A DNA stretch of 64,000 nt from contig NZ_CP038141.1 in assembly GCF_006542355.1 (NCBI RefSeq), positions 463,501 to 527,500 of the forward strand, in the 5' to 3' direction. Of the stretch, positions 35,962 through 41,230 are shown piece after piece. The position numbers were made by a program, and so were the translations under genes. Source of the stretch: Swingsia samuiensis. GTDB taxonomy: Bacteria > Pseudomonadota > Alphaproteobacteria > Acetobacterales > Acetobacteraceae. Under the pieces are notes generated by a model that did no database searches, was not told the DNA's origin, and was given only the letters and a program-made list of their open reading frames with translations. The first letter of the stretch is position 1; each line of letters opens with the position of its first letter.

Positions 35962-35987
35962 AAAAAAGGCGGCCCGCTAAGGCCACC
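35962..35987 (-). terminator. Terminator-like attenuator directly upstream of rimP
   Basis: On the minus strand GGTGGCC (35987-35981), loop TTAGCG, GGCCGCC (35974-35968), then six Ts (35967-35962), ending 3 nt before the rimP TTG. The stem has one G-U pair that would be a C-A mismatch in the opposite transcript, so it is built for the minus strand. Candidate leader attenuator for the rimP-nusA-infB operon. Confidence 0.6.
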
Positions 35988-36148
35988 CCCCGAAAGAAAG
36001 CGGAAGATAAATGGAATAGCTTTAGCTTAATGCACTTGCACTCGATATGCAAGAGGAACGATGAACAAGGCCTAATTCCCAATCACTATAATTTTTTTTA
36101 CTTTATAAACTCTTGCAGACAACGAAATCTTCCTATGAAAATAACTGC

Positions 36149-36748
36149 ATGCGTGACGATCTTCCCTCTCCCCAACCGCTCCATACCCCAAGCATTACAG
36201 AAAACGCTAAGCCCCATAGAAAATCTTGGCTTTCAATAGGAGCCATTGGTTTTACCATCCTCGCTGCAGGCTTTCATTTTTACAACACACACACACCACA
36301 AACAGAAAAATCTTCCACAGAGCAGGTTACCTCACACAAAAGTGACGCCCTTCGTGCTGTCACACAACTTTCCATGATTTTACCGGAAAATGCGCCTCAA
36401 GCTCTCGCTAAGAGCCGGTTCTCTCCCACTCAGCAAAGTATGATCCTCGCAGCTTTGAAAAGAGGGTCCATGCGTCTGGTCGAAATGCCGGTTCTTGATG
36501 CAGCAGGGCTATCTGGGCAAACCATAGATATTTCAGTCGCCGGCCTTACACAGCGCATCACATTAACTGGTCACTTTCAAAGAGTTATTCTGCCAATTTC
36601 TGAAGTGGGGCAAGTCACCATTACACCTGTTACAGCACCTCATGCGCCTGTCTTAAATATCGGCGCTATGACCGCTTTAGGACCAGAGGTTTTGCCAAGT
36701 CTAACTTCTCTTGATCAAAGTATCGTGCTCAATATTCTGGTGCAATAA
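36149..36748 (+). CDS. Single-pass membrane protein of unknown family, first gene of an AAA+ operon
   Basis: About 199 residues. A Pro/His-rich cytosolic N-tail of some 25 residues, one membrane helix (about 28-46, WLSIGAIGFTILAAGFHFY), a Ser/Thr/Lys linker, then an extracytoplasmic domain with a helical part (FSPTQQSMILAALKRGSMRLVEMPVLDAAG) and a beta-rich part (QTIDISVAGLTQRITLTGHFQRVILPISE). No family recognised. The start is uncertain: ATG at 36149 is taken; a TTG 36 nt upstream is possible. The next gene, an AAA+ ATPase, begins 12 nt after its stop. Confidence 0.7.
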   Translation: MRDDLPSPQPLHTPSITENAKPHRKSWLSIGAIGFTILAAGFHFYNTHTPQTEKSSTEQVTSHKSDALRAVTQLSMILPENAPQALAKSRFSPTQQSMILAALKRGSMRLVEMPVLDAAGLSGQTIDISVAGLTQRITLTGHFQRVILPISEVGQVTITPVTAPHAPVLNIGAMTALGPEVLPSLTSLDQSIVLNILVQ

Positions 36749-36760
36749 AAGAGGCGAAAG

Positions 36761-38035
36761 GTGTTTAAATCCCTCATTCCAATGCTCAACCGAGCGATGC
36801 CGTTAATGATGGCTTTATTTGTTATTCTGGCAATCGTGCAGGTTGCCGTTATGCTGCACCTTTCTACGCATAGTTTATACACAATTATAGATAGTGGTCG
36901 TGAATTTTACTTACCACTTGCTGCTATGATGAGCTTTTTTACAATTATTGGTTTATGTCATGAAAGTTCTTCTGAAAAAATAGCACGCAAGGGATTACGC
37001 CGAAGGAAAAGCTTACTCATGGATGTTCTCAGCCGCCTCACCAACCGTACAGAACTTGAAGAGCTTATGGCTCGCGAACAACATGAAACTGTTATTGATG
37101 CAGAAGAACTCGCGGCATCCTTACGAGCCCGCATCATCGGACAAGATAAAGTCTGTGAAGATATATCCCAACAGCTCAGACGCCGCCTTGCTCTCAAAAC
37201 CCGCGGAAAACCCGTTGGTGTGTTCCTTCTGGCCGGGCCGCCAGGAACAGGCAAAACATACTTGGCCAAACAGATTGCACGACAGATGGATCGCCCCCTT
37301 CTCCATTTCGACATGACGCAAATGTCGAGCGCTCATGCGGCCACTCAACTTTTTGGCTCGCCCAAAGGATATGTTGGTTCTGATACATTTGGAAAATTAA
37401 CTGGTGGGCTAAAAGAAAACCCAGATGCTGTCGTCCTTTTGGATGAGATTGAAAAAGCACATCCAGATGTGTTTAAAAAATTCTTAACAGCATGGAATGA
37501 TGGTCATATTACTGAGGCCTCTACGGGAGAGCAAGTTTCAACAACCCGTGCCATCTTTATGCTGACATCCAATATTGCAACAGAAGCCTTAACTGAAATT
37601 GCTGATCGATTGGCAGACGATCCAGATAAAATGCGCGCTGAATCCGTTGAGACACTGCGACGGTCAGGTTTTGCTCCAGAGGTTTTAAACCGTATTGATC
37701 GTATTTTTATTTTCCGCTCTTTGCGCGGATTAGATTTAGCGCGCGTTGCTGCTCTTGAGATCGAAGCCATGATTGAAAGCTATGGTTTGCATGTTGAAGC
37801 AGGTGGAATTGACGCAAACCTTCTTTTCCAAGTGATGCAAAAACAGAAAAACCTTGGCACGGGAGCCAGTGCGCGTGATTTGGTACGCTCTATTGAGGAT
37901 ATGATTAGTGAAAGCCTCATTATCGCTCGTCAGCAAGGCGCAAAGAAAGTCCGCTTAGTTTCACAGGAAAACAATGTTGTTGCTGAAATCGTTTCAGAAC
38001 AAGACATTCAACTGAGGAAAGAAAGTCGTTTATGA
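36761..38035 (+). CDS. Membrane-anchored ClpB-D2-like AAA+ ATPase
   Basis: 424 residues from a GTG with GAGGCGAAAG upstream. Two hydrophobic segments (about 13-33 and 49-65) anchor it, with a short loop between. A charged helical linker leads to one AAA+ module of the Clp/Hsp100 second-domain type: IIGQDKV entry motif (126-131), Walker A GPPGTGKT (159-166), aromatic pore-loop-like GYVG (203-206), Walker B VVLLDEIEKAHP (224-235), sensor 1 MLTSN (267-271), the arginine-finger region FAPEVLNRIDR (304-314) and sensor 2 GASARDL (368-374). No first AAA domain, no N-domain and no visible ClpP-docking loop. It probably threads or remodels a membrane-proximal substrate. Sandwiched between two unknown membrane proteins. 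Confidence 0.85.
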   Translation: MFKSLIPMLNRAMPLMMALFVILAIVQVAVMLHLSTHSLYTIIDSGREFYLPLAAMMSFFTIIGLCHESSSEKIARKGLRRRKSLLMDVLSRLTNRTELEELMAREQHETVIDAEELAASLRARIIGQDKVCEDISQQLRRRLALKTRGKPVGVFLLAGPPGTGKTYLAKQIARQMDRPLLHFDMTQMSSAHAATQLFGSPKGYVGSDTFGKLTGGLKENPDAVVLLDEIEKAHPDVFKKFLTAWNDGHITEASTGEQVSTTRAIFMLTSNIATEALTEIADRLADDPDKMRAESVETLRRSGFAPEVLNRIDRIFIFRSLRGLDLARVAALEIEAMIESYGLHVEAGGIDANLLFQVMQKQKNLGTGASARDLVRSIEDMISESLIIARQQGAKKVRLVSQENNVVAEIVSEQDIQLRKESRL

Positions 38036-38934
38036 CGGCTTTCTCACGCCTCTGGAAAAGAGCCCCTATCTGGCGCGCCTGTTTGATAGGAGCAATCGCC
38101 ACGACAGGAATGGCCGCTTTCTTCCCAACAGAAGGTCTTAAAAAAGCACTTCCTTGGCTACCGGGTAGCAGCCATAGTCTTTCTTTTCAAACCGCTCCCA
38201 ATCCCAATAATGACAATCAAACTGAAGTTCTAGAGCCTGATCCGACCATATTCGTACATGACCATATTTCAATTGCGGGCCGTATAGTGCCTCTCCCTGA
38301 AGGAAACTGGCACCCCATTCTGTCTGCACGCTTGCCCCCCAATGAAGCGTTATCATCCCAAGCACTTGTCCGGACTGAGAATGGAAGCGTTTCTGGTATA
38401 ATTATCGTCACAGCGACGCAAGAACCCATCTCTGCTGACAACATTAATTATCTTGATGCGGCATGTCATGATAATCGTAATTATATAACGCTTTTCGCGC
38501 CTCAAACCGATCAATCAGAGGAGTGTTCTTTTTTAGCGACTGCTCTGATGGTTGATCATCCAATCAGCCCAGATCCTTTTATCAAGACCACTTTCAATCG
38601 ATTAAATACCTTAGGCTTCCCGGTTCCATCTTTTTTTATTACTGCAACCTGGGGTCATGCTACCTTACAACAGGGAAGCCCCAATGCCCAATTTGAAACC
38701 GTTCAAATGTTCATGCCTCCTCTTGATAAAACATCTCATCAATTGTTAGCGCCTCTTTCAAACTGGGCAAACAACTCCTTACATTCATATCCCGAAGCTT
38801 CGCTCTTTATGACGCATGCGAAAAAATGGCTTCCTCTTTGGGCACATCTTTTACAAGATGGGTTTAATGGACACCTTTCAACGCAAGACCTTAAAAATTC
38901 ATCCGCCGGACAAGACCCAGCGGCCCCTCAGTGA
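38032..38934 (+). CDS. Single-pass membrane protein of unknown family, third gene of the AAA+ operon
   Basis: 300 residues starting in an ATGA overlap with the AAA+ gene stop. An N-terminal basic stretch and a hydrophobic helix (about 14-30) give an N-in topology with some 265 residues outside the cytosol. The exported part has two cysteines (CHDNRNYITL... and EECSF) that could form a disulfide, a central beta-rich region (HDHISIAGRIVPLPEGNWHPILSARL) and helical C-terminal half. No family recognised. Its last 7 nt overlap the convergent ABC transporter gene. Confidence 0.72.
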   Translation: MTAFSRLWKRAPIWRACLIGAIATTGMAAFFPTEGLKKALPWLPGSSHSLSFQTAPNPNNDNQTEVLEPDPTIFVHDHISIAGRIVPLPEGNWHPILSARLPPNEALSSQALVRTENGSVSGIIIVTATQEPISADNINYLDAACHDNRNYITLFAPQTDQSEECSFLATALMVDHPISPDPFIKTTFNRLNTLGFPVPSFFITATWGHATLQQGSPNAQFETVQMFMPPLDKTSHQLLAPLSNWANNSLHSYPEASLFMTHAKKWLPLWAHLLQDGFNGHLSTQDLKNSSAGQDPAAPQ

Positions 38935-40472
38935 TGTCCAAGATGGGGCCCCATACTCCGCCCCATTCTTTTCTCTACGAACCGTGCTAAACGAACAAAA
39001 GGCAGTCCGAGCAGAAGGTACGCGGCACCCACCATCAAACCTGTGCCAAAATAATCATAATATGTTGCCGATAAGCGCACATACGTCTGGCTTAACTCAG
39101 TCAATGTAATGACAGAAACCAATGAACTGTCTTTCAGCAATGAAATAAAATCATTCGTCATTACAGGCACAACGGTACGGAAAGCCTGAGGGATAATCAC
39201 TAGCCTTAAAGACTGCCAATGGGTCATGTTTAATGCAACAGCCGCTTCCATTTGCCCTCGCGGAACAGAAAGCAACCCTGCACGATAATTTTCTGCTTCA
39301 TAAGCTGAGTAATTTAGGCCCAGCGATAAGACCCCTGCCATGAAAGGAGACAAACGCACTCCAAAAGCTGGCAGCCCATAGAAAATAAAGAGCACTTGAA
39401 TCAGTAAAGGCGTGCCTCGAATAACTTCCACATATAACCCGACCAAAACCCTCAAGACCATCCCGCCATAGTGGCGTGACAAAGCCAGCACTAGACCCAA
39501 CCCAACAGCTAAGACCATTGCCAAAGCAGAGACGGCAAGGGTCATCAAAGCGGCTTTCCCAATAAGGGGTAGAAAACCAATATATCGATGCAGCAGAACC
39601 TTCCACTCGCTTCCGCTCATTCCGGCCATAGCCGTCTTATACTGCTGCCATTTCACGGGGGGTATATCGAGGTGTGAATGATCCCCCGTATAGTTCTCCA
39701 TTAAAGGGGTCCACAAATTCCATTGAGCCAGAATTTTATGAAGCGTCCCATCCTTTATCAATTCATTCAGGGCAACATTCACCTGATCCCGTAATGCCCG
39801 GCTACCCTGACTAAATGCTATCCCATATTCCATACTACCAATGGGTTCGCCCACCAGCTTCATATCATCCGTAATGGAGCCATAATACAGCGCTATAGGG
39901 GCATCCAACAAAATCGCATCCAACCGGCCATTTCTCAAATCTGAAAAGGCATTTGTCTCTTCTTCATACGAACTTAAGGTGACCTCTCCCACCCTTTGCA
40001 ACATTCGTTCAGCAATTGTATTTTTAATAGTTCCAACTTTGTGCGTTTTTAAAGCATCCAGTGTATCCAGCCCTGTTTCATCCTTACGAATAACAATTCG
40101 CTCACTCGTCACGTAATAAGGACGAGAAAATAATACAGCAGCCTTATGCTCAGGGGTCATTTCAATACCATCGACCACCATCGCATATAAATCACGGGAC
40201 AACCCGGGAATAAGACCGTCCCAATCATTCTGAACAAACCTTGCTTTTTTATGCATTCTTTCAGCAAGGGCATTCACCAGATCATACTCAAACCCGGTCA
40301 TTTGTGATTCATGTTGCGGATCATGAAACACGTAAGGAACATTGGCCTCCCCATCCGAGGCCCATGGTAAATCTGTTACGCCCTTTGCACCGGGAATAGA
40401 GATAGGTTCAGCATAAGCCCCGGATGCGCACAGCACCATTAGAGCACAGAAAAGTGCTGTCACTCTTTTCAT
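38928..40472 (-). CDS. Polar amino-acid ABC importer: binding protein fused to permease
   Basis: 514 residues. Signal peptide to about residue 21, then a type II periplasmic binding domain (VPYVFHDPQHESQMTGFEYDLVNALAERM... DGIEMTPEHKAAVLFSRPYYVTSERIVI) to about residue 250, a linker, and a HisM/GlnP-type permease domain with the EAA loop (AYEAENYRAGLLSVPRGQMEAAVALNMTHWQSLRLVIIPQAFRT). Such fusions tether the receptor to the pore. It is coded directly after, and overlapping by 1 nt, its ATPase gene. The substrate is likely a polar amino acid such as glutamine or histidine, unresolved. Confidence 0.92.
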   Translation of the reverse strand: MKRVTALFCALMVLCASGAYAEPISIPGAKGVTDLPWASDGEANVPYVFHDPQHESQMTGFEYDLVNALAERMHKKARFVQNDWDGLIPGLSRDLYAMVVDGIEMTPEHKAAVLFSRPYYVTSERIVIRKDETGLDTLDALKTHKVGTIKNTIAERMLQRVGEVTLSSYEEETNAFSDLRNGRLDAILLDAPIALYYGSITDDMKLVGEPIGSMEYGIAFSQGSRALRDQVNVALNELIKDGTLHKILAQWNLWTPLMENYTGDHSHLDIPPVKWQQYKTAMAGMSGSEWKVLLHRYIGFLPLIGKAALMTLAVSALAMVLAVGLGLVLALSRHYGGMVLRVLVGLYVEVIRGTPLLIQVLFIFYGLPAFGVRLSPFMAGVLSLGLNYSAYEAENYRAGLLSVPRGQMEAAVALNMTHWQSLRLVIIPQAFRTVVPVMTNDFISLLKDSSLVSVITLTELSQTYVRLSATYYDYFGTGLMVGAAYLLLGLPFVRLARFVEKRMGRSMGPHLGHH

Positions 40473-41230
40473 TAGAGAATTGTCCGCAAAAAGCGCCGTG
40501 TCCGTTCATGCGTCGGGTTAGCAAACATTAACTCAGGCTCCCCACTCTCAACGATCTGGCCACCTTCAATATACAATACACGATCTGAAGCCGCACGAGC
40601 AAAGCGCATATCATGCGTTACAACAATCTGCGTCATCCCCTCCGTATCCAAATCCCGCATGACAGACAGAACCTCTTCCGACACTTCTGGATCAAGCGCA
40701 GATGTCGGCTCATCATATAACATCACAGAAGGCTTCATCGCTAAAGCACGGGCAATGGCGGCACGCTGCTTCTGCCCTCCAGATAAACTATCGGGATAAC
40801 GCTCTTTAAGAGCCCCCAAACCAACCTTCTCAAGCAAATTACACGCAATATCACGCACCTCTACAGATGAAACGCCCTTAACGTGCATCGGTGCCATCAT
40901 GACATTATCTAATACCGTTCGGTGTGGAAAAAGATTAAAGGCTTGAAACACCATTCCTACGTGTGAACGCAATTGATGCGCTTGAGCCTCGTGCTTGCGG
41001 CTCCAATGCCCCCCTGAACACGACAGCATTATATTTTCGATACAGACAGAACCAGAATCAGGGTGCTCTAAAAAATTCAAGCACCGTAAAAACGTCGACT
41101 TGCCGCAGCCTGAAGGGCCAATAATGGAAACAAGTTCTCCACGCTCAACATCCAGCGATATTCCTTGCAGAATTTTATTCGCTCCAAAAGACTTAACAAT
41201 AGCCTTTGCCTGCAATACCAGATCTGTCAG
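40472..41230 (-). CDS. Polar amino-acid ABC transporter ATP-binding protein (GlnQ/HisP-like)
   Basis: About 250 residues with Walker A GPSGCGKS, Q loop MVFQAFNLFPHRTVLDNV, signature LSGGQKQR, Walker B VMLYDEPTSALDPE and the H loop VTHDM: the PAAT family ATPase. The start is unusual: the first ordinary codon is a TTG at 41215, with no ribosome site near it, whereas GGGGGAG stands 8 nt before an in-frame CTG at 41230 that would begin TDLVLQAKAIVKSFG, a good fit to homologues. The CTG is taken here with low certainty. First gene of the importer operon. Confidence 0.88.
   Translation of the reverse strand: MTDLVLQAKAIVKSFGANKILQGISLDVERGELVSIIGPSGCGKSTFLRCLNFLEHPDSGSVCIENIMLSCSGGHWSRKHEAQAHQLRSHVGMVFQAFNLFPHRTVLDNVMMAPMHVKGVSSVEVRDIACNLLEKVGLGALKERYPDSLSGGQKQRAAIARALAMKPSVMLYDEPTSALDPEVSEEVLSVMRDLDTEGMTQIVVTHDMRFARAASDRVLYIEGGQIVESGEPELMFANPTHERTRRFLRTIL

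Follow-up and report, generated by a model that had tools for sequence, protein, structure and literature searches.

Clp/Hsp100 ATPases are usually soluble, and ClpB has two AAA modules together with an N-domain and a coiled-coil M-domain. FtsH carries a C-terminal M41 metalloprotease with an HEXXH motif, and HflK and HflC contain the SPFH/Band_7 domain. The Torsin domain sits in the ER lumen, with its arginine finger provided by LAP1/LULL1. Dodola consists of DolA and DolB together. We describe a three-gene set that encodes a membrane-anchored single-ring Clp form with what appear to be dedicated periplasmic partners, in the Acetobacteraceae, some of whose acetic acid bacteria serve in industry. 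The papers searched yielded no description of the set, nor of its ATPase in acetic acid bacteria; no name and no function were found, so that it is apparently undescribed, in keeping with an original prediction that knew of no named system with this layout.

The window is a 64,000 nt stretch of Swingsia samuiensis contig NZ_CP038141.1. Its three co-directional genes, here UP, AAA and DN, span 36149-38934. UP (36149..36748, plus strand) encodes a bitopic protein of 199 aa with one transmembrane (TM) helix; its start is uncertain, as there is an in-frame TTG at 36113. AAA (36761..38035, plus) encodes 424 aa with two TM helices and a single Clp/Hsp100-type AAA+ module, from a GTG start preceded by AGGCGAAAGG. 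DN (38032..38934, plus) encodes a bitopic protein of 300 aa with one TM helix. ORF calls reproduced the predicted genes and junctions, with a 12-nt gap between UP and AAA and an ATGA overlap between AAA and DN. The upstream neighbours, rimP and nusA, are divergent. Downstream lies a convergent amino-acid ABC transporter on the minus strand, with a fused binding-protein/permease gene (38928-40472, identified with Pfam), which shares its last 7 nt with the end of DN, and a second gene (40472-41215). This transporter, with its fused binding protein and permease, is kept downstream of the triplet in many genera.

The two N-terminal TM helices of AAA (residues 14-32 and 49-67; 36800..36961, plus) were found by hydropathy at positions conserved in alignment A1; the first hydrophobic segments named in the original prediction keep their positions across genera. 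The loop between the helices is about 16 residues long and predicted periplasmic, and hydropathy and charge analysis places six K/R in the 15 residues C-terminal to the second helix; the ATPase is therefore assigned to the cytosol. Alignment A1 gives Walker A as GPPGTGKT (residues 159-166; 37235..37258, plus), the pore loop as GYVG (203-206; 37367..37378, plus) and Walker B as VVLLDE (224-229; 37430..37447, plus). Sensor 1 (TSN), an arginine finger (PEVLNR, R311) and sensor 2 (SARDLVR) are also present. Pfam AAA_2 matches over its full profile (127 bits, E 7.6e-37) with all catalytic motifs, which identifies a Clp-type AAA+ protein. No ClpP loop of the form [IVL]G[FL] was seen by eye in alignment A1 between sensor 1 and the arginine finger. 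The predicted membrane-anchored, cytosol-facing single-ring Clp-type ATPase without a partner-protease loop was thus recovered from its TM helices, charge pattern and full motif set.

The same prediction called the protein ClpB-D2-like; a separate clade beside the ClpB-type and the ClpA/C/E-type modules describes it better. Profile and sequence comparison puts AAA at about equal distance from the ClpB, ClpA, ClpC and ClpE modules. It shares with ClpB/Hsp104 and with the D2 of ClpA, ClpC and ClpE a complete AAA_2 module with all motifs, at about 30-40% identity, but it has one module only, and two TM helices replace the N-domain, D1 and M-domain. The best NCBIfam match was ClpB (TIGR03346) at 171 bits over profile positions 534-850 only, against a membership score of >1232 bits; on this score, its 424 aa and its one module, AAA was rejected as ClpB. 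In a tree of 90 AAA_2 modules, made by a quick method and with long branches, nine family members including one from Microvirga formed one clade (SH-aLRT 100), separate from both the ClpP-loop group and the ClpB-like group. This clade and the missing ClpP loop also set AAA apart from the ClpA, ClpC and ClpE D2 modules. A ClpP-partner unfoldase (ClpA, ClpC, ClpE or ClpX) was rejected on the lack of an IGF/IGL-type loop, the loop-bearing rows falling outside the family clade. Three short non-family ORFs in the tree (445-459 aa) are C-terminal ClpB parts without TM helices, hence not relatives. FtsH was rejected because AAA ends after its AAA small domain and M41 is not among the matches listed, and Torsin because the match is partial (27.5 bits) and AAA has its own PEVLNR finger.

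A protein search with AAA (E below 1e-60) gave matches in 106 of 397 Acetobacteraceae genomes, representing 25 of 102 genera. When the deep member L048 was used as the query against 385 genomes across the class, matches were found only within the same family. UP and DN adjoin AAA in all 72 inspected genomes whose AAA has intact motifs, a count from which duplicates were removed by hand. The triplet recurs in constant order across dozens of species, far beyond chance, and is present in deep members L048 and L085; it is conserved as a unit, as the original prediction requires. The genes overlap or have short gaps in most genera, with a 4-nt UP-AAA overlap in many, and the set often lies between rimP-nusA and the amino-acid ABC transporter. 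Identity to the window proteins is 62-82% for AAA in most genera, 20-50% for UP and 23-43% for DN. The only case found outside the family is on plasmid pMVF16-3 of Microvirga sp. VF16 (L088:11884-13330), where an AAA of 44% identity precedes the unannotated beginning of a DN, which breaks off behind the anchor. This AAA groups with L048 in the tree, and the copy points to gene transfer between orders.

Mobile elements bear on one rival explanation, that the locus is an anti-phage defence module comparable to the ClpB-like DolB and PDC-M37B of PADLOC. PADLOC matches of 83-89 bits fall on the AAA module only and are weak. Dodola itself was rejected because the AAA module alone matches DolB (83 bits) and its neighbours match nothing in PADLOC. 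DolB resembles AAA in having a Clp-type AAA module and no protease, but here there is no DolA-type partner, and AAA sits with membrane partners in a conserved chromosomal locus, at a fixed place beside rimP-nusA in many genera. Viral contigs and phage collections gave no relative beyond generic Clp matches, and the Microvirga copy is the one plasmid case; a contig pattern scan returned mostly generic Clp proteins, its patterns falling on or near Walker B. We consider a defence role very improbable.

UP has its TM helix at about residues 26-44 by hydropathy; the bulk of the protein is predicted periplasmic by charge pattern, and its Pro-containing N-terminal tail is predicted cytosolic in family alignment A2. 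An AlphaFold model from two-sequence input shows a periplasmic helical hairpin and an Ig-like beta-sandwich (pLDDT 76-93, residues 71-160); matches to Ig-like and other beta-sandwich domains were weak (Z about 6) and within background. The periplasmic part begins with a strand-helix-helix-strand that looks LysM-like; there was no LysM among the Foldseek/VIA-align matches listed. A UP profile run on 337 Alphaproteobacteria genomes was confined to the family, other matches having E of 3e-4 or worse.

DN has its TM helix at residues 13-31 (hydropathy), with a predicted cytosolic N-terminus and periplasmic bulk; a variable linker follows the helix and leads to a periplasmic domain with two invariant cysteines, C145 and C165. 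Its N-terminus carries the cytosolic/juxtamembrane motif LWKRAPIWR (38050..38076, plus; consensus LWxxAxxWR), in which L7, W8, A11, W14 and R15 are invariant across 35 DN proteins; the Microvirga remnant has LWNEASVWR. In the same 337 genomes a DN-domain profile recurred in unnamed secreted proteins and lipoproteins, stand-alone or tandem, for which Pfam gave no family above cut-off. Examples with the pattern LPLPxGxW ... C ... C ... W are at L202:6864-7655, L203:7042-7785, L204:330-1757, L205:6615-7526 and L206:5511-7026. The stand-alone proteins lie in unrelated gene contexts with no system attached, have signal peptides or lipoboxes, and lack LWxxAxxWR; as far as observed, then, only AAA-linked DN has the anchor, which likely marks the site where DN contacts AAA. 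A two-sequence DN model with an alpha/beta core was of low confidence (pLDDT 54.6). Its best structural neighbours include PknH, TiME, LpqN and PsbP-type structures (Z 5-6.4 over about 115 residues, within the background range); the alignment to the PknH sensor domain/LpqN/PsbP-Mog1 fold group is likewise of low confidence, comes with no sequence kinship and offers no more than a lead.

Neither partner had a significant match in Pfam (E up to 1), NCBIfam, PHROG or PADLOC, and each has one TM helix, in agreement with the prediction of two bitopic proteins of unknown family. For DN we amend this: it belongs to no named family, yet its domain is common to unnamed alphaproteobacterial secreted proteins.

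The topology of the three products is that of FtsH-HflK-HflC: two N-terminal TM helices, a cytosolic AAA+ module and two bitopic partners with periplasmic domains. A similar membrane quality control can be proposed, in which membrane proteins would reach the ATPase under the control of the bitopic partners and clients would pass to another protease or be refolded. AAA differs from FtsH in lacking both the metalloprotease and a periplasmic domain, and UP and DN are not SPFH proteins, with no SPFH/Band_7 match in either (Pfam, E up to 1). The distribution is also patchy for a housekeeping role, and ATPase activity seems to have been lost repeatedly, as described next; we regard this explanation as unlikely.

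In seven genomes (G205, G247, G375, G109, G183, G164 and G118) the AAA, 402-472 aa long, lacks Walker B, pore loop and arginine finger. The P-loop is changed in all seven, although L049 still has GKT. These dead AAA proteins retain the membrane part and the small domain. Counted by genome, DN is retained in 7/7 and UP is at the locus in 0/7. The UP profile gave no convincing match elsewhere in these genomes; two matches at E 0.004, in G205 and G247, cover just the N-terminal portion of the profile, lie on contigs other than that of the locus and were judged to be chance. A single family AAA per genome was found in four of them by a looser search and in two more by a stricter one; G118 had been found via its DN, and the search for a second AAA covered the other six.

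Parsimony on a NusA tree requires five switches of the intact/dead label, of which well-supported branches enforce three, and an intact species lies beside a dead one within three genera. UP and the ATPase motifs thus appear to have been lost jointly in at least three lineages and probably five. Ten other genomes of the genus of G375, likewise of 1.9-2.1 Mb, have an intact AAA, so genome reduction alone does not explain the decay. At the level of sequence the decay is local. The segment holding the pore loop, Walker B and sensor 1 shows the highest conservation of all parts when intact proteins of the main clade are paired (87-93% identity) and falls to 19-47% in dead-vs-intact pairs, against 65-76% for the Walker A half and 42-59% for the small domain; the TM part also falls less. 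For L046/L047, the sole pair close enough to measure, dN/dS was 0.057 for the dead AAA and 0.058 for DN, so this AAA is under purifying selection and is no pseudogene.

Because UP and the catalytic motifs are absent together, UP appears to track ATPase activity, with DN and the AAA scaffold as a separable core. The original prediction treated the flanking proteins as two equivalent partners; both are indeed membrane-tethered and periplasmic, but UP vanishes with the ATPase motifs and DN stays. The order of loss may be visible in G149 (L036), sister to G205 and G247, where UP is split over two frames within the roughly 550 bases upstream of AAA. This AAA retains all motifs despite the frameshifted UP (the genome is counted among the 72 intact ones), which suggests that UP decays before AAA; an assembly error is a possible source of the frameshift.

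The same coupling argues against AAA being a general disaggregase tethered to the membrane, with UP and DN merely co-transcribed envelope proteins. The best NCBIfam match being ClpB is in line with that idea, as is the far greater conservation of AAA than of UP and DN, but DN accompanies AAA in every inspected family genome, dead AAA included. We find it quite improbable.

Our preferred reading, to which we give a probability of roughly 0.55, is that UP, AAA and DN form one inner-membrane AAA+ remodelling complex working as follows. Two short TM helices would hold AAA in the membrane, and its Clp-type motor, presumably hexameric, would work on the cytosolic side. UP and DN would supply the periplasmic side, because AAA has almost no periplasmic mass. 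DN would be the constitutive partner, touching AAA through LWxxAxxWR. UP would belong to the ATP-driven work, whether by activating the ring, by acting as an adaptor or by being itself a client offered to it. As long as UP is present, the ring would hydrolyse ATP and act through GYVG on a protein of the membrane or envelope, which it would pull on, unfold or remodel. The client would be released or dissociated rather than degraded, because AAA is without a ClpP loop and a protease domain. Once UP is lost, selection on the ATPase would cease, leaving AAA in the membrane as an inactive scaffold for DN. The GYVG pore loop and the lack of a protease make degradation less likely than extraction or remodelling; the 'extraction machine' and 'sensor or adaptor' roles of the original prediction are ones that we, too, can only infer.

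Several points count against this complex. UP and DN evolve fast beside AAA, a tight conserved interface being visible only at the DN N-terminus, and the genes around the triplet differ between genomes and point to no pathway. It may also be that the client disappeared and that UP and the motifs both went with it, with no contact between UP and AAA.

Another explanation takes Torsin-LAP1/LULL1 as its model, with membrane partners activating the ATPase and the machine acting on envelope architecture. Both pair a Clp-type single ring with single-pass partners dedicated to it, the loss of UP coincides with that of the ATPase motifs as expected of an activator, and Pfam Torsin matches AAA residues 109-190 (27.5 bits). 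The ring is cytosolic here, however, with its own arginine finger and pore loop, and the folded part of UP lies across the membrane from it. UP and DN show no sequence kinship to the Torsin partners and are not AAA-like; UP is modelled as a beta-sandwich, against an AAA-like fold for LAP1 as given in PMC4358337. We therefore judge a Torsin-like machine improbable.

Taken further, the remodelling complex may be an undescribed Clp/Hsp100 machine with two separable jobs, one ATP-driven with UP and one structural with DN and the scaffold, the first having been repeatedly stripped in parallel; we offer this tentatively, at somewhat short of even odds. One AAA+ motor turned pseudo-ATPase in parallel would be unusual in itself. 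The parallel decay is a rare natural experiment that separates the partner dependent on ATP hydrolysis from the independent one; both partner-dependence claims are testable in genetically tractable strains.

Two features were seen in the intergenic region upstream of UP. The block GAAAGATTTGTTTACATT is kept upstream of UP across the genus (L002-L022), with a degenerate form in the window species, and may be a UP promoter; a promoter scan gave no excess over shuffled sequences. On the minus strand at 35964-35991, just upstream of the rimP start, is a terminator-like hairpin, GGGGGGTGGCC..GGCCGCC followed by six T, which matched no Rfam family at its threshold. Its end is a few bases short of the rimP start codon. 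Loci of many Acetobacteraceae genera have the hairpin at the same place, their loop and stem changes preserving the pairing, and it resembles a leader attenuator for rimP-nusA as an operon.
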